64,000 bases of DNA from Elioraea tepida (GTDB lineage: Bacteria; Pseudomonadota; Alphaproteobacteria; Acetobacterales; Acetobacteraceae). The notes under the pieces are model-generated. The model was not told where the DNA came from. It made no database searches and saw nothing but the letters and a program-made list of their open reading frames with translations. Each line of letters starts with the position of its first letter. The first letter of the stretch is position 1. The stretch covers positions 1 to 64,000 of the forward strand of contig NZ_CP076448.1 of NCBI RefSeq assembly GCF_019203965.1, written 5' to 3'. Below, piece after piece: positions 48,118 through 56,047 of the stretch. The position numbers and the translations under genes were made by a program.

Positions 48118-48202
48118 CTTGCGCCGGGCCGTCACGGCGGCATGGCGCTTGCTTCCTTTTCGCCGCGCGCGTCTGATGGCGCATCGACCATGCGGGGAGA
48201 GG

Positions 48203-49393
48203 ATGGATCCTTACCTCTGGGAATGGGGCAGCCTGCTGTTGCGCTGGCTGCATGTCGTGGCGGCGATGGCCTGGATCGGCTCATCGTTCTTCTTCATGCA
48301 TCTCGATGCCTCGCTACGGGCACGACAGGACCTCCCGCCCGAGGTCAAGTCGGCCTGGCAGGTGCACGGCGGCGGCTTCTACGAGATGCGCAAATGGGCG
48401 GTCGCGCCGCCCGGCATGCCGGACCATCTGACCTGGCACAAATGGCAGGCCTACTGGACCTGGATCTCGGGCGCGCTGCTGCTCGCCTGGATCTACTACG
48501 CGCAGAGCGAGCTGTACCTGATCGACCCGGAGGTGCGCGATCTGTCGCCGCTCGCCGCCGCGGCGTTCGGCGCGGGCGGGATCGTGCTCGGCTGGCTTGT
48601 CTATGACGGTCTCTGCCGCTCTCCGCTCGGGCGCAACGACGCGGCGCTGCTCGCCGTGCTGTTCGCCTATGTCGTGCTCGTCTCGGCGGGCTTCGCCGCT
48701 CTCTACTCCGGGCGGGGGGCGCTGCTGCACACCGGCGCGGTGCTCGCCACCATCATGACCGGCAATGTCTTCCTCGTGATCATCCCGAACCAGCGGAAGG
48801 CGGTGGCGCAGCTCCTCCGCGGCGAGACGCCCGACCCCCGCTACGGCCTCGAGGGCAAGCAGCGTTCGACGCACAACAACTACATCACGCTGCCGGTCGT
48901 GTTCCTGATGCTTGCGAACCACTATCCGCTCACCTGGGCGTCGCAGGCGGCGATCCCGGCGGTGGTCGCGCTCACGCTCGTCGCCGGCGCGCTGGTTCGA
49001 GTGTTCTACAACCTGCGCCATGCCGGCCGCGGCAATGCCTGGTGGGCCTGGGGCGGGGCGGCGGCCGCGATCGCGGCGGCGGCGTTCCTCACCATCCGTC
49101 TCGGCCCGGCCGATCCGGCGGCGGAATGGCCTACCCAAGCGGCCATGGTTCCCCCGGCCGTGGAGGAGATCGTGGTCGGCCGCTGCGCGATGTGCCACAT
49201 GCCCGCTCCCGCCTGGGCAGGGCTCGGCATGCCGCCGAAGGGCGTGGTGCTCGACCATCCGGAGGCGATCGCGCGACAGGCATACGCGATCCGGCTGCAT
49301 GCCGTCCTGACGCATGCCATGCCGCCCGGCAACATCACCGGAATGACGGCAGAGGAACGCCGCGTGCTCGCGGCCTGGACGGCGGGGCGCTGA
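48203..49393 (+). CDS. puuD: Membrane urate hydroxylase with cytochrome c domain
   Basis: PuuD-type urate oxidase: an integral membrane urate hydroxylase feeding electrons into a C-terminal cytochrome c. Residues 1-300 hold about eight spans with WLHVVAAMAWIGSSFFFMHLD and THNNYITLPVVFLMLANHYPL, the PuuD (DUF989) hallmarks. The heme site CAMCH is at C328-H332, with MPPGNITGM supplying the Met ligand. It acts one or two steps before allantoinase (puuE, 2664). ATG 48203 follows GGGGAGAGG. Placed after the gntR gene with no clear link to it. Confidence 0.93.
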   Translation: MDPYLWEWGSLLLRWLHVVAAMAWIGSSFFFMHLDASLRARQDLPPEVKSAWQVHGGGFYEMRKWAVAPPGMPDHLTWHKWQAYWTWISGALLLAWIYYAQSELYLIDPEVRDLSPLAAAAFGAGGIVLGWLVYDGLCRSPLGRNDAALLAVLFAYVVLVSAGFAALYSGRGALLHTGAVLATIMTGNVFLVIIPNQRKAVAQLLRGETPDPRYGLEGKQRSTHNNYITLPVVFLMLANHYPLTWASQAAIPAVVALTLVAGALVRVFYNLRHAGRGNAWWAWGGAAAAIAAAAFLTIRLGPADPAAEWPTQAAMVPPAVEEIVVGRCAMCHMPAPAWAGLGMPPKGVVLDHPEAIARQAYAIRLHAVLTHAMPPGNITGMTAEERRVLAAWTAGR

Positions 49394-49399
49394 GCCGGT

Positions 49400-49783
49400 T
49401 CAGCCCCGGCCGCAGGCGCCGGCAAGGAAGGCGCGCAAGTCGGTGGCAGAGAAGGGTTTGGCAAGCGTGGCGAGGCGCTCGATCCCGTGGCTCTCGGCGA
49501 AGCGGCGGGCCTGGGCAAGGAACGCCTCGCCATAGCCGGAGACGACGAGTGTCGGCAGGGTCGGGCGGTCAGCCGCGATCAGGGTGAGGAGCCCGAGCCC
49601 GCATCGCTCCCCGAGCATGCAGTCGACGATCGCCGCAACTGCATCCTCGCGCCCGAGCAGCGCTGGGAACTGGTCCGGGTCGTCGGTCGCAGCCGTCGCG
49701 AGGTCGAGCGGACGGATCACCGACGCGACGGCGCGGACGAAGTCGGGGTTGTCATCGAGCACGAGAACGGTGCGTTCCGACAT
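49400..49783 (-). CDS. Single-domain response regulator
   Basis: A stand-alone receiver domain of 127 residues with no output domain. The acidic pocket is in VLVLDDNPDF, the phosphorylated Asp in AAIVDCMLGERCG, the Thr/Ser switch in TLVVSGYGE and the Lys in LATLAKPFSA. Such proteins relay phosphate or act as sinks. The likely partner kinase is not here. An AAAGGA site precedes ATG 49783. Confidence 0.88.
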   Translation of the reverse strand: MSERTVLVLDDNPDFVRAVASVIRPLDLATAATDDPDQFPALLGREDAVAAIVDCMLGERCGLGLLTLIAADRPTLPTLVVSGYGEAFLAQARRFAESHGIERLATLAKPFSATDLRAFLAGACGRG

Positions 49784-50097
49784 TGCATGTTCCTTTCCCG
49801 CGCGCTCCCGGCTGCGCCCGTGCCAGGGTGTGCGGCGGTGGGTAAAGGACCAGTCAACCCGGCTGCGCCCGCGGCGCAGATCAGCCATACCTCTGCAGGC
49901 ACGGCATCGATCACGCCGATGCGCCGAGGAAGCGGGACGGCACCACGGCCGACGCCACGCCTTGGCTCAGGCCGGGACGGCAGCACCAACGTGCTCGATC
50001 GCCACTTCGAGCGCGCCCCTGGCCCCAGGCGACCCGACGGTGGCAGCGAGAGGCTCGGCCTTGGAAGGAATCCGCCGTCCGCGCGCGGGCAAGCCCG
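49784..50097. other. 314-base stretch without a recognisable gene
   Basis: Between the receiver gene and the TAXI gene I see only short open frames with no family match and strong GC-codon shadow composition. Two CGGCTGCGCCCG copies (near 49807 and 49860) are the only repeat noted. The promoter of the receiver gene should lie here. Confidence 0.5.
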
Positions 50098-51090
50098 TCA
50101 GCGCGTATGGTCGAACCGTGTCCAGCCGGGCACCTGGGCGGCGAGGTTCACCTCGCGCCATTTCGGGTGCCGCGGCGGGCGAAGGAACTGCTCGAACTTC
50201 TCGTTCAGCGCGACGACGAAGCGCGAGACCTTCCGATGCCGCTCGCTGCCCGGCGGCCAGGCATAGACCGCCATGACGGCGCCGACAGCGATCGTCTCCA
50301 CTGACGTGCCGGCGGGGATGAGGTTCGGATAGTCGGTATGGCTGATGCTGGCCGGCAGGTAGGTCTCGAGCAGGGCGGGCGTGGGGGTGATCGGGAGGAA
50401 GCGGAGCCCGCTTGCAGGCTCGATCGTGGCGAAGAGCCGCGCCGGCTTGCCGGCGACGAACACCATCGCGTCGATCTCGCCGCGACGGAGCCTGGTCAGC
50501 GCCACGTCCTGAGGGTCGTAGGCCGGGGTGATGCCGATTCCGAGCGCGCCGAAGACGAGCGAGGCCGTCATCGCCGTGCCGCTGCCGCGGCCATCGACAT
50601 TGACGGTCTTGCCGGCGAGCGCGGCGAGGTCGCGCACGCTTTCGCGCGCGAGCACGTGCACCTCCTCGTCATAGAGTTTCGTGATGTACTGGATCAGGCT
50701 CACGACACCCGGGATCAGCCGCTCCCGGCGCGCATAGGCAAGCACGTCAGACTGCACGATGCCGATGTCGATGCCGCGCAACAGAACGATGTCTCTCAGA
50801 TTCTGGATCGAGCCCTTGCCGACCACCGGGACGACGCGCAGCGTGTCGCCGTCGTCGAGCACGGCGGCGAGGTCGGCCGCAAACCGGATATAGGTGCCGT
50901 CGACCCCGCCGGAGATCACGCCGACCGTCCCGGCATTCGCGCGTGCGGCCATGGCGCGCAGGATCTGGGTGACTCTCTGGGCGCTTTCCGGGGCGGTTGT
51001 CTGTGCTGATGCGATCCCGGACGTTGCGGAACCGAAAAGGCCGGCGAGCACGGCACGGCGCGAGGGCGTGTGGGCAACGGGTCTGCTCAT
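50098..51090 (-). CDS. TAXI-type TRAP substrate-binding protein
   Basis: Periplasmic binding protein of the TAXI group of TRAP systems, 330 residues, with a twin-arginine-like signal (HTPSRRAVLAGLFGSATSGIASAQ). Core motifs: VGVISGGVDGTYIRFAADLA, VVGKGSIQNLRDIVLLRGIDIGIVQSDVLAYA, LAGKTVNVDGRGSGTAMTA and EIDAMVFVAGKPARLF. TAXI proteins normally work with a fused DctQM permease; none is in this window. It overlaps the stop of the upstream repeat protein by four bases (ATGA), so the two are translated together. Confidence 0.87.
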   Translation of the reverse strand: MSRPVAHTPSRRAVLAGLFGSATSGIASAQTTAPESAQRVTQILRAMAARANAGTVGVISGGVDGTYIRFAADLAAVLDDGDTLRVVPVVGKGSIQNLRDIVLLRGIDIGIVQSDVLAYARRERLIPGVVSLIQYITKLYDEEVHVLARESVRDLAALAGKTVNVDGRGSGTAMTASLVFGALGIGITPAYDPQDVALTRLRRGEIDAMVFVAGKPARLFATIEPASGLRFLPITPTPALLETYLPASISHTDYPNLIPAGTSVETIAVGAVMAVYAWPPGSERHRKVSRFVVALNEKFEQFLRPPRHPKWREVNLAAQVPGWTRFDHTR

Positions 51091-52742
51091 CGTGATCCTT
51101 CCAGTGCTCTGATTCGTTCCGCCGCCCGGGTTTCCCCGAGCGAGGCGGCATAGCGATACCAAGCGAGGGCCATGTCCCGGTCGGGTGTGATGCCGCGTGC
51201 GCCGAGGCGTGCGAGCACGCCCGGATCGTAGGTTCCGCCCATCGCGAGTGCGGCGCTCGCATTGGCCGAGGCGGCGGCGCGTTCGAAGAACTTGCGTGCC
51301 CCCGAGATGTCGCCGAGGGAGAGCAGGGCCTCGCCGCGCAGAAGCATCGCTCCCACGACGGCAGGAGGATCGGGAACGGGGAGGAGGGGGATAGGCGCCT
51401 CAGCGGCCGGAAGGGCCGGCGCTGTGACGGCTTGGGGCGAGGTCGTCCTCGCGGCAGTCATCTCGCGGGCGAGGGCGGCGAGCGCCGCCTCGAGCTCCGG
51501 CTCGGGCGGCTCTTCGACCGGCTCCGGCCTTGGCGCAAGGTCGCGGGCGAGGGCGGCGAGGGCAGCCTCGAGCTCAGGGGCGGGTGGCTCCTCGATCGGT
51601 TCCGGCCTCGGGGCGATGTCACGCGCGAGCGCCGCGAGCGCCGCCTCGAGAGCGGGCTCAGGCGGCTCCTCGATCGGTTCTGGCCTCGGGGCGATGTCCC
51701 GCGCGAGCGCCGCGAGCGCCGCCTCGAGAGCGGGCTCAGGCGGTTCCTCGATCGGTTCCGGCCTCGGGCCGAGGTCGCGTGCGAGGGCGGCGAGCGCCGC
51801 CTCAAGCGCGGGCTCAGGCGGTTCCTCGACCGGCTCCGTTGTCAGCGCGGCGAGGTCCGAGAAGGAGGACGCGAGCAGATGCCTCACACGGCTTTCGGAC
51901 ACAAACCCGTTCTCGGCCAGACCGGGGGTCGCTGCTCCTGCGCCGCCTGAGCCGGCGCCCCCGCTCTCGACCACCGGCGCGGCGGCGAGGGAGGACGGCG
52001 CTCCGGCATCGGTTCGCATCGTGCTCGAAACGTTGGCAGCAACCTGCAAGGGCTGATCGGGCGGCTCCGTGGGCTGCGGCGAGGGGCCGCGCAGCGCGGC
52101 GATCACCACAAGCCCGGCTGCCAAGGCTCCGGCGCCGATCGCGAGCGGAACGTTGCTGCGGCGGCGCGGCACAGCCTGAGCGGCGTCCGCCGTCGTCCTC
52201 GTCGGTTGCCCCCCCGCTTCGCTCGAGCCCGTTTGCGAGGCAAGAACGGCCGGGGCCTCGCGTGCGGCGGAGGGAGCGTGCGTCACCTCCCGCCGCTCCG
52301 GCCGAGCCGTCTCAGGCGAGGTTTCCTGGGGGACGCACAGCACCCGCCGCAGCGCCTCCACCCAGGCTCCGCCCGGCGGCAGCGTCAGCGCCGGCTGAAG
52401 GCTGAACGCCTCCGCGAGGATCGTCGCCAATTCAGGGAGGTGCTCGCGGCGGAGGCGCCGATGGATGGCAGGCAGCCGGCCCGGAAAGGCGGAGGTGAAC
52501 CCGGTTTCCTCAAGCCGACGCGTGAGCCAGGCAAGCGCATCCGGCGTCCAGCGCGGTTCGAACTGAAACAGGGCAAGCCCCTTCTCCGGATGCACCAGAA
52601 CGAGGTCGCCCCGTGAGCGGGTGTCGCAGATGACGGCCCCCTCGAGCACAACCCAGCGGGCCCCGGGCGAGAGGCCCGCCCCGCCGGCGCGTCGCTCGGG
52701 TGTGGCCACCCTGTCCGTTACGCGGTCGCGGCCGTCTGACAC
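51087..52742 (-). CDS. Membrane protein with five 26-residue repeats and Sel1-like end
   Basis: Unrecognised 551-residue protein, GTG start. Parts in order: an N-terminal domain (28-135; GARWVVLEGAVICDTRSRGD, HPEKGLALFQFEPRW) that looks nuclease/NERD-like but without a clear active site; a linker; one membrane span (198-218, after RRRSN, so the N-terminus is probably cytoplasmic); a Ser/Ala linker; five repeats of 26 residues (303-432) of the type EPxEEPPEPALEAALAALAR; and a C-terminal Sel1-like segment (about 465-551, ARKFFERAAASANASAALAM, DMALAWYRYAASLGETRAAE). The Pro/Glu part may span the periplasm. Translationally coupled to the TAXI binding protein, so a sensor or scaffold using its ligand state is conceivable. 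Confidence 0.65.
   Translation of the reverse strand: MSDGRDRVTDRVATPERRAGGAGLSPGARWVVLEGAVICDTRSRGDLVLVHPEKGLALFQFEPRWTPDALAWLTRRLEETGFTSAFPGRLPAIHRRLRREHLPELATILAEAFSLQPALTLPPGGAWVEALRRVLCVPQETSPETARPERREVTHAPSAAREAPAVLASQTGSSEAGGQPTRTTADAAQAVPRRRSNVPLAIGAGALAAGLVVIAALRGPSPQPTEPPDQPLQVAANVSSTMRTDAGAPSSLAAAPVVESGGAGSGGAGAATPGLAENGFVSESRVRHLLASSFSDLAALTTEPVEEPPEPALEAALAALARDLGPRPEPIEEPPEPALEAALAALARDIAPRPEPIEEPPEPALEAALAALARDIAPRPEPIEEPPAPELEAALAALARDLAPRPEPVEEPPEPELEAALAALAREMTAARTTSPQAVTAPALPAAEAPIPLLPVPDPPAVVGAMLLRGEALLSLGDISGARKFFERAAASANASAALAMGGTYDPGVLARLGARGITPDRDMALAWYRYAASLGETRAAERIRALEGSR
51447..51836 (-). repeat. Five 78-base tandem repeats (26 residues each)
   Basis: In-frame tandem units within the gene above, each beginning EP(V/I)EEPPEP or EPIEEPPAPE and continuing with an Ala/Leu helix EAALAALARD and a PRP turn. 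The middle units are nearly identical at the DNA level, which points to recent expansion or gene conversion; the last unit decays after ALAREM. No single-base run drives it. Confidence 0.85.
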
Positions 52743-52848: not shown

Positions 52849-54078
52849 TCAGGCCGCCGGTGCGGCCCGTGCCGGAAGCCTTGTGGGAAACGCGAAGGCG
52901 ACCGCAGCGGCGATCACAAGCAGCGCCGCCGACCCGGCAAGGCAGGCGGAGAGCCCGCCCGCCGCCGTCAGCGCCCCGGAGGCGAGGGTGCCGAGCAGGC
53001 GCCCTGCCGCGTTGGCGGCGTAATAGAACCCGACATCCTCCGCCGCCTTCTCAGACCCCGCATAGGCGAGGATCAGGTAGGAGTGCAGCGAGGAGTTGAC
53101 CGCAAAGGCGAGGCCGAACACGGCAAGCCCGACGACCACGACGAGGTCGGGCCGAACCTCGAGAGGAGCGGCGAGCACGGCCGCGAGCGCCGCAGGCACG
53201 GCAGCAAGCGCGACCGCCCACCCTCTGGCCGCCGGAACCTCGCTCGACAGGCCGTCGGCGGAGCGTCGCACGAAGCCGGGCGTCGCCGCCTGAACCGCGC
53301 CGTAGCCGATCGTCCAGAGCGCGAGGAACAGGCCGACACCGGCAAAGCTCCAGCCCTGGCCGTAGAGGAACAGCGGCAGGCCGACGACGAACCACACGTC
53401 GCGGGCGCCGAAAAGCGCGATCCGTGCCGCGGCGAGCAGGTTGACGCCGCGGTTCTTGGCGAACAGCTCCCGCGCCGAGCGCGAGGGCTTCGCCCGGCCG
53501 AAGAGCGGCGGCAGGGCGAGCACGGCACCGACAAAGACCACGCCGAGGCCCGCCGCCATAGCAAGGAGCGCGCCGCGGAAGCCGAGCACCTCGAGCAGGA
53601 GACCGCCCAGGAAGAAGCCCGCTCCCTTCATCGCGTTCTTCGACCCGGTGAACCACGCCACCCAGTGGAACAGCACTGCCCCGCCGTTGTGCACCGCCGC
53701 TGCGGTGAGCTTGATCGCGCTCTTCGAGGCGGTCTTCGTTATATCCTTGGCGATTCCGGCGAGCCCCTGCCCGGCGACCGCCCAGACGACCGAGAGTGCA
53801 AGCCCCCAGCCAGGGTCGAGCGCCGCGAGGAAGAGGAAGGCGGCGACCTGAAGCCCGAGGCCCGCCGCGAGCATGCGCGAGATGCCGAACCGGACGGCAA
53901 GCCACCCGCCCGCGAGGTTGGCCACGATCCCGGCCGCTTCGTAGAGCACGAACAGGAGCGCCAACGTGAAGGGCGAGAAGCCGAGGCGGAAGAAATGCAG
54001 GAGCACGAGCATCCGCAACGCGCCATCGGTTAGCGTGAAGCCCCAGTAGGCAGCGGTGACGATGGCGTAGGTGCGCAT
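52849..54078 (-). CDS. arsJ: ArsJ organoarsenical exporter
   Basis: MFS-type exporter of the ArsJ family, 409 residues, about 12 spans. ArsJ ejects 1-arseno-3-phosphoglycerate, which then breaks down to arsenate outside. The call rests on the AYWGFTLTDGALRMLVLLHF start, the TGSKNAMKGAGFFLGGLLLE block and the adjacent GAPDH gene, the known functional partner. It begins five bases after the GAPDH stop and closes the operon. An antisense frame of comparable length is a shadow. Confidence 0.9.
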   Translation of the reverse strand: MRTYAIVTAAYWGFTLTDGALRMLVLLHFFRLGFSPFTLALLFVLYEAAGIVANLAGGWLAVRFGISRMLAAGLGLQVAAFLFLAALDPGWGLALSVVWAVAGQGLAGIAKDITKTASKSAIKLTAAAVHNGGAVLFHWVAWFTGSKNAMKGAGFFLGGLLLEVLGFRGALLAMAAGLGVVFVGAVLALPPLFGRAKPSRSARELFAKNRGVNLLAAARIALFGARDVWFVVGLPLFLYGQGWSFAGVGLFLALWTIGYGAVQAATPGFVRRSADGLSSEVPAARGWAVALAAVPAALAAVLAAPLEVRPDLVVVVGLAVFGLAFAVNSSLHSYLILAYAGSEKAAEDVGFYYAANAAGRLLGTLASGALTAAGGLSACLAGSAALLVIAAAVAFAFPTRLPARAAPAA

Positions 54079-54083
54079 CCGGC

Positions 54084-55127
54084 TCAGACGCCCCGTTCAG
54101 CGACGATCACGGCGAGATCGACCATCCGGCACGCGTAGGCCATTTCGTTGTCGTACCAGGCATAGACCTTGAGCAGCGTGCCGTCGGTCACGAGCGTGGA
54201 GGGGGCGTCGACGATCGCCGAGCGCGTGTCCCCGGCATAGTCGGACGAGACGAGCGGCCGCGTCTCGATGCCGAGGATCCCGGCAAGCGGCCCCGCTTCG
54301 GCGGCGGCGAAGGCCGCGTTGACCTCAGCTGCCGTGACGGGGCGGGAGAGCTCGAACACGCAATCGGTCAGCGAGGCATTCAGGATTGGCGCGCGCACGG
54401 CGTGCCCATCAAGCCTTCCCTTGAGGTCGGGATAGATCAGCCCGATCGCTGTCGCCGAACCTGTGGTCGTCGGCTGCAACGACAGCATGGCCGAACGAGC
54501 ACGCCTCAGGTCCTTGTGCGGCGCATCGACCACGACATTGGTGTTCGTCGGCGCGTGGATCGTGGTGATCTGGCCGTGGCGTATGCCGAAGCACTCATGC
54601 ACCACCTTTACCACCGGGGCGAGGCAGTTGGTGGTGCAGGAAGCGGCTGTGAGCAGTCGGTTGCGGGCGGGGTCGTACCGGTCGTCATTGACGCCGACGA
54701 CGATGTTGAGAGCGGGCTCGGCCTTGACAGGGGCGGCGACGATCACCCGTTTCGCACCGCGCGCGAAATGGCCCGCGACCGAGTCAGGCGTGATGAACTT
54801 GCCGGTGCACTCGAGCACGACATCGACCCCGAGCTCCCCCCAGGGGATCGCCTCAGGCGCGGCATGGGCGCTGAAGCCGATCCGGTGGTCGCCCACGCGG
54901 ACCGCCGTCTCGCCTTCGGCCTCGATCGGCACGCGCCAGCGCCCCTGCACGCTGTCGAAAGCAAGCAGATGCGCTGTCGCGGCCGCTCCCCCCTTGAGCT
55001 CGTTCACGTGCACGACCTCGAGCCGGTTTCCGGCGCGCGGGTCGGAGGGCGGCCGGTCCGCCCCGCCGAGCGCCGCGCGCAGCACAAGCCGCCCGATCCG
55101 CCCCATGCCGTTGATGCCCACGCGCAT
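54084..55127 (-). CDS. gap: ArsJ-associated glyceraldehyde-3-phosphate dehydrogenase
   Basis: GAPDH, 347 residues. NAD site [16 protein letters not shown] at the N-terminus; catalytic C164 in [11 protein letters not shown]; substrate blocks [19 protein letters not shown] and [15 protein letters not shown]. In this operon it uses arsenate in place of phosphate to make the unstable 1-arseno-3-phosphoglycerate that ArsJ exports. Its start shares one base with the arsR-arsC stop (TGATG), so translation is coupled. A housekeeping GAPDH is presumably elsewhere. Confidence 0.93.
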
Positions 55128-55927
55128 CAGGCCGCCACCCTGGGGCCGATCGCCTCGAGCTGCGCCTTCGCCGCGAGCCGGTCCGCATGATCGAAGGGAA
55201 GGCTCACGAACAGGTCAATCCGACGTTGCAACGACAGGTAGAGGTCGTCGAGCAGCCTCTCCCGCTCGGCGGCGCTGCCTCGGAACGCTGCCGGATCGGG
55301 AAGCGGCCAAGCGGCGGTGACGGGACGGTCCCCGAACTCGGGGCACGTTCTGTTCTCGAGCGTGTCGCACAACGCGATCACGAAATCCATCCGCGGCGCG
55401 GCGGGGCCCGTGAACACCTCCCACGACTTGCTCGCAAGCCGCGAGACGTCATGGCCGAGGGAAGCGAGCTTCGCGATCACCTCCGGCATGGGCTCTGGTG
55501 CCGGGTCGGACCCGGCGGAATAGGCGCGGAAGCGCCCCGCCCCGAGACGGTCGAGAATCGCCTCCGCCATGATCGAGCGCGCGGCATTGCGCGTGCAGAG
55601 GAAGAGAACGTTGAAGGCGGGGGAGAGACGGTCGGTCCCGGAGTGATCGCTCGAGCAGGTCTCGGCGAGCAGACCGAGGAGCGACCGCAGCGTGTCGAGC
55701 CGTGCGGCGTAGCGGATCGAGCGCCCCTGGCGGGAGGCAGCCACCAATCCGGCCCGGTCGAGCGCCGCGAGGTGGAAGGAGAGGGTGGAGGGGGGGACGC
55801 CAAGCCGGGTTGCGATCTCGCCTGCCGCGAGGCCGGAGGCACCGGCGCTGGCAAGGAGGCGAAGCATGGAAAACCGCGTTTCCTGGGCGAGGGCAGCGAA
55901 GGCGCGGGTGATCGTCTCCGTTTCCAT
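55127..55927 (-). CDS. ArsR regulator fused to LMW-type arsenate reductase
   Basis: Two-domain protein, 266 residues. Residues 1-90 are an ArsR/SmtB winged helix ([19 protein letters not shown]) and 105-266 a low-molecular-weight phosphatase-type ArsC with CTRNAARS (C111, R117) and the thiol pair C187/C195, plus the general acid region LPDPAAF. So the same chain senses arsenic and reduces arsenate. ArsR proteins of this build usually bind As(III) through three Cys at the end of the winged helix; here only C91 is seen (ETCSSDHSG). ATG 55927 heads the operon; the upstream 230 bases to the next gene should carry its promoter. Confidence 0.9.
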
Positions 55928-56047
55928 TGTTCCAGGATACTTGAAATCACTTTCCTCAGCAAGCCATCGCGAAACCCGCCTGAGGGAAGACCGCAAGGAA
56001 GGAATTCGCGCGAATGTCACGCGCCTGGAGCGAGGATTTCTCGAAAT

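Follow-up and report, generated by a model that had tools for sequence, protein, structure and literature searches.

An orphan TAXI binding protein paired with a stalked, Sel1-like partner in Elioraea tepida and its relatives

TAXI solute-binding proteins are automatically annotated as subunits of TRAP transporters, and a TAXI gene without a permease beside it raises the question of what its product works with. Orphan TAXI proteins have been mentioned in the literature, where a TAXI-GltS system has also been described (PMC12344293). Such a gene lies in the window analyzed here, the first 64,000 nucleotides of contig NZ_CP076448.1 of Elioraea tepida, in which no DctQM permease gene adjoins the TAXI gene or its partner. 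An earlier note, made from the sequence alone, had described this TAXI gene as coupled by an ATGA overlap to a one-span protein with a repeat stalk and a Sel1-like end, and both open reading frames, the overlap, and the domains are confirmed. Here, we ask whether the two genes belong together, whether they depend on a TRAP permease, and what they may do; the pair probably does not import a solute but forms a complex beyond the cell membrane that serves in docking or sensing.

The gene pair and its surroundings

The features of the pair, all on the minus strand, are as follows.

50098..51090, minus: gene for the TAXI solute-binding protein (330 aa), which has a Tat-like signal (SRRAVLAG); from sequence, profiles, and the fold model of a relative
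51087..52742, minus: gene for the 551-aa partner, which has a single membrane span; from sequence
51087..51090, minus: ATGA overlap of the partner stop and the TAXI start; from sequence
51097..51102, minus: GGAAGG, six bases before the TAXI start and within the partner gene, resembling a ribosome-binding site; sequence, with a presumed role
52323..52664, minus: N-terminal cytoplasmic alpha/beta domain of the partner, residues 27-140; iterated profile and fold model
52092..52145, minus: single membrane span, residues ~200-217, with RRR on its N-terminal side; hydrophobicity, topology predicted by the positive-inside rule
51402..52091, minus: periplasmic stalk rich in Pro, Ala, and Glu; from composition
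51463..51838, minus: 78-bp tandem repeat in 4.8 copies (26-aa unit) within the stalk; repeat search
51090..51401, minus: C-terminal TPR/Sel1-like domain (CT), the segment of the partner whose conservation goes along with TAXI; family profile

The TAXI frame runs from an ATG at 51090 to a stop codon at 50098-50100, and 51090 is the most likely start, not 51162, the first codon of the open frame. Its product matches Pfam NMT1_3 with 54.4 bits (cut-off 27) and TIGR02122 (TRAP_TAXI) with an E-value of 1.6e-19 and 69.9 bits, which is under the curated cut-off of 84.35. The fold model of a relative that is 66% identical (locus L121) has TAXI structures as all of its top seven PDB matches, with TM-scores to the target of 0.66-0.73.

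In the partner, the stalk comprises 229 residues (17% Pro, 24% Ala, and 14% Glu), and the repeat array within it reaches 86% matches and a score of 493. The window CT matches Pfam Sel1 weakly (23.4 bits, cut-off 30.7); the CT family profile matches solved Sel1 proteins with a best E-value of 2e-25, and the CT fold model is all-helical. The N-terminal domain of the window partner has no Pfam match, and its fold model is a confident, small alpha/beta fold (pLDDT 83.8). A fold search with this model gave no clear match, with a best Z of 5.8 (Schlafen) and weaker hits to VRR_NUC and XisH, and any likeness to endonuclease-like folds (PD-(D/E)XK or NERD-like) is weak. According to an iterated profile this domain is common to 26 partners, the window partner included, and it also occurs in paralogues with other periplasmic heads, as in genomes G023 and G026, where it is likewise combined with the stalk. 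It thus looks like a general anchoring unit. Paralogues at loci L071, L073, L074, L075, and L063 match the window partner in N-terminal domain, membrane span, and Pro-rich stalk but end in SH3-like heads or a short Cys-containing tail, as in a modular display family.

The nearest TRAP genes in the window form a separate DctPQM set at 44.5-47.4 kb. The gene of a single-domain response regulator (49400-49888) follows the TAXI gene in the same orientation at a distance of ~300 bp, and was rejected as a member of the system, as it does not recur as a neighbor among the 80 loci introduced below. Next to it, 48119-49393 encodes a urate oxidase of the membrane type (PF06181), which may carry a cytochrome c domain at its C-terminus. 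Upstream of the pair, on the same strand, genes for an ArsR-phosphatase fusion, GAPDH, and ArsJ follow in a row (52849-56020) and make up an organoarsenical efflux operon, which is not kept beside the pair in relatives.

Conservation of the pair and variation of the partner

Eighty GTDB loci were retrieved with peptide patterns from the TAXI alignment alone (HPKW..., KLYDEE...), so that conservation within these patterns is by construction; CT was sought afterwards. A CT gene neighbors TAXI in 75 of these loci, directly upstream in 69 and elsewhere within 6 kb, downstream or convergent, in 6; the 4-base overlap is present in 31 of the 69. Two of the five loci in which CT was not found are near contig ends, and the other three are Belnapia/Craurococcus copies behind an unrelated gene. 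Clustering of the neighbors of the 80 loci gave no family other than TAXI and its partner at a fixed place, and no transporter gene either. The earlier note had proposed a search for the pair in other genomes and for a DctQM permease in these; neither DctQM nor any TAXI-type permease lies within 6 kb of TAXI in the 80 loci.

The association also holds in an even sample of 385 Alphaproteobacteria, of which 14 have CT, 18 have the orphan TAXI, and 12 have both, for an expectation of 0.65 (hypergeometric 9e-17, not corrected for phylogeny). The genes are adjacent in 11 of the 12, with CT upstream, downstream, or divergent, and far apart in G383. Among 22 genomes of the same family, strong CT matches were found in all seven with the TAXI and in none of the 15 without it. 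In a second family, that of G105, TAXI usually comes first and the partner second, and CT lies beside TAXI in 14 of 17 loci read. Random separation of the two genes in relatives, which the earlier note had named as evidence against its view, is thus not what is seen; the orphan TAXI is tied to this partner, in many gene orders and backgrounds.

A few clade TAXI genes, at L118, L139, L142, L155, and L265, are without a CT neighbor. In the six TAXI-only genomes, the gene upstream of TAXI codes for a coiled-coil partner in G106 and for a short one-span protein in G145 and G339. In G166 and G351 a secreted protein is encoded divergently, with a Sel1 match below threshold in G166, and G267 has nothing clear beside TAXI.

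The partners themselves vary. AAA_22 was found in 8 of 26 other partners scanned and Ig-like domains in two, and the partner at L163 carries SPOR and PG_binding_1 domains, assigned to it by reading the sequence. In Azospirillum and Methylobacterium, the partner seems to carry a signal peptide and to lack a cytoplasmic part, and in Belnapia some partners consist of little beyond a signal and CT. The repeats in the stalk are lineage-specific, and what stalks have in common is their richness in Pro. A Pfam scan of the window partner and >30 others detected no kinase, HAMP, cyclase, or chemoreceptor domain. Because relatives may have an AAA ATPase in place of the cytoplasmic domain, a shorter version of it, or none, and because secreted partners occur as well, the constant core is, as far as sequence comparison goes, the periplasmic CT together with TAXI, and a cytoplasmic sensor cannot be the common function. 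The suggestion in the earlier note of a sensor or scaffold in preference to a transporter stands as regards a role outside TRAP transport, but not as regards a transmembrane sensor.

Ligand site, TRAP permeases, and rival explanations

The glutamate site of VcGluP is formed by Y45, S75, Q93, and E125 (PMC11574862), which align with Y91, S118, Q137, and E166 of the window protein (ORF numbering). All four are identical in the 81 TAXI proteins aligned, where 16% of columns are invariant overall; E166 falls inside a pattern used in the locus search, and Y91, S118, and Q137 fall outside the patterns. Conservation of the site in the clade can accordingly be rated above background, but not extreme. 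Q137 is lost in a few more distant members (L070, L080, and L081). The orphan TAXI proteins form one clade in the tree (support 100/100), apart from the permease-linked ones, and conserve a C-terminal HPKW...GW motif that is absent from permease-linked TAXI proteins.

The TAXI protein could still feed a TRAP permease encoded elsewhere, with the partner merely tethering it near the membrane. A TAXI permease elsewhere in the genome, with a matching regulon, was the other observation that the earlier note had named against its view, and such permeases are present: the E. tepida genome has 24 DctM matches and six other TAXI proteins, five of them beside a permease. DctM genes also occur in most of the genomes that hold the pair. 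However, each of these five TAXI-permease pairs has its own binding protein, and the clade is separate and has its own C-terminal motif. Moreover, no DctM was found in G456 (100% complete) and G439 (98%), which keep the adjacent pair, or in G145 (100%) and G267 (90%), which keep the clade TAXI, and the single DctM of G105 is located in a DctP-type set. A shared TRAP permease is thereby refuted for G456 and G439, and TRAP transport is excluded as the general function of the pair, so that we regard this explanation as very doubtful. Rather unlikely, too, is a non-TRAP transporter encoded elsewhere, for which TAXI-GltS of Bordetella, backed by gene coupling and fusions, is a published precedent (PMC12344293); of 24 genomes searched for GltS, G456 and G439 not among them, 18 lack it, E. 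tepida included, and the 80 loci hold no transporter gene at a fixed place near the pair.

A cell-envelope scaffold, in which the stalked protein would organize the periplasm or the cell wall, with TAXI as a subunit of structural or regulatory kind that needs no ligand, would fit the SPOR and PG_binding_1 domains of the L163 partner, the AAA_22 domains, and the paralogues in which, by eye, SH3-like heads replace CT on the same cytoplasmic domain and stalk. Yet a purely structural role does not require the fully conserved ligand site, and we consider this explanation unlikely. That the genes are chance neighbors coupled by genome compaction has nothing in its favor beyond the compactness of bacterial genomes; it has a negligible likelihood and is rejected by the co-occurrence, well above expectation, and by the conserved pairing, which is repeated in different orders and backgrounds.

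We favor, with a probability of about 0.5, a permease-free two-gene module in which TAXI and the Sel1-like domain form a ligand-controlled periplasmic complex, tethered by the stalk and with a regulatory or scaffold function. The exported TAXI protein would bind a small acidic ligand, such as glutamate or a similar amino or oxo acid, and close. Its state would be read, or its position fixed, by docking on the TPR/Sel1-like head of the partner, which a flexible stalk would hold away from the inner membrane. As the Elioraea partner has a cytoplasmic domain and a single predicted span, ligand state or localization could be passed inward, while in relatives with secreted partners the complex would have to act inside the periplasm, perhaps upon some other membrane protein. 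CT and TAXI of L121 were also modelled with AlphaFold2 as an artificial read-through fusion (with the TGA read as W, an artificial linker); the domains are confident, but with a pTM of 0.65 their relative placement is not.

E. tepida has another TAXI gene without a TRAP permease (L001; G000:C1:1409232-1413080), and the gene immediately upstream of it encodes an ABC transporter ATPase.

Comparison with known systems and other partners

The TAXI fold and the residues of the glutamate site are shared with TAXI-TRAP systems (VcGluP/VC0430; TtGluBP, 1US4/8U79). In contrast to these, the pair has no adjacent permease, belongs to a separate clade with an altered C-terminus (HPKW...GW), has a one-span Sel1-like partner, and occurs in genomes without DctM. 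In TAXI-GltS of Bordetella pertussis (BP0403), TAXI is likewise translationally coupled to a non-TRAP gene, and the arrangement, as here, is membrane-tethered and elongated (PMC12344293), whereas the partner described here is not a transporter, the E. tepida genome has no GltS, and the tether is on a separate protein.

Among alphaproteobacterial proteins, ExoR and PodJ have periplasmic Sel1/TPR repeats, a likeness to CT based on the Sel1 profile alone, and PodJ is a one-span protein with a cytoplasmic part. To our knowledge, neither of them is paired with a binding protein. Receptors of the LuxP-LuxQ type are activated by a binding protein. Solute-binding proteins that activate sensor kinases have been described (PMC11113362). 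In such receptors, as in the pair, the gene of the binding protein is accompanied by that of a membrane partner with a periplasmic head. Unlike in those receptors, no kinase, HAMP, cyclase, or chemoreceptor domain was found in the partners here, and some have no span beyond the signal peptide.

No paper that brings TAXI together with a Sel1 protein in the periplasm was found among the open-access papers searched. The parts are of known kinds, and the combination appears to be new. We lean somewhat toward regarding the pair as representative of an undescribed, widespread class of non-transport TAXI systems, in which a glutamate-type binding protein and a dedicated stalked or secreted Sel1-like partner would serve as a ligand receptor or ligand-gated scaffold, independently of TRAP. 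Since a whole clade with an intact ligand site goes with a Sel1-like partner and is retained where no TRAP permease exists, the TRAP annotations of its members are probably wrong, and these orphan TAXI proteins are not mere stray subunits. This offers a testable answer to the role of orphan binding proteins, and builds on the published result that partners other than TRAP permeases are used by TAXI proteins (PMC12344293).

In the small, complete genomes G145 and G339 (L236:5061-6632 and L239:4987-6897), the short one-span protein before TAXI is Pro-rich in G339, where its tail is similar to that of TAXI (DLLSIIDRQ vs. DLLNIIKGQ). In a Rhodobacter/Shinella/Paracoccus branch of the clade (L082, L083, L084, and L235), a coiled-coil protein replaces CT directly upstream, and partner and TAXI often both end in Cys (e.g., LGGC, VVGC), which suggests a shared tail or a disulfide.
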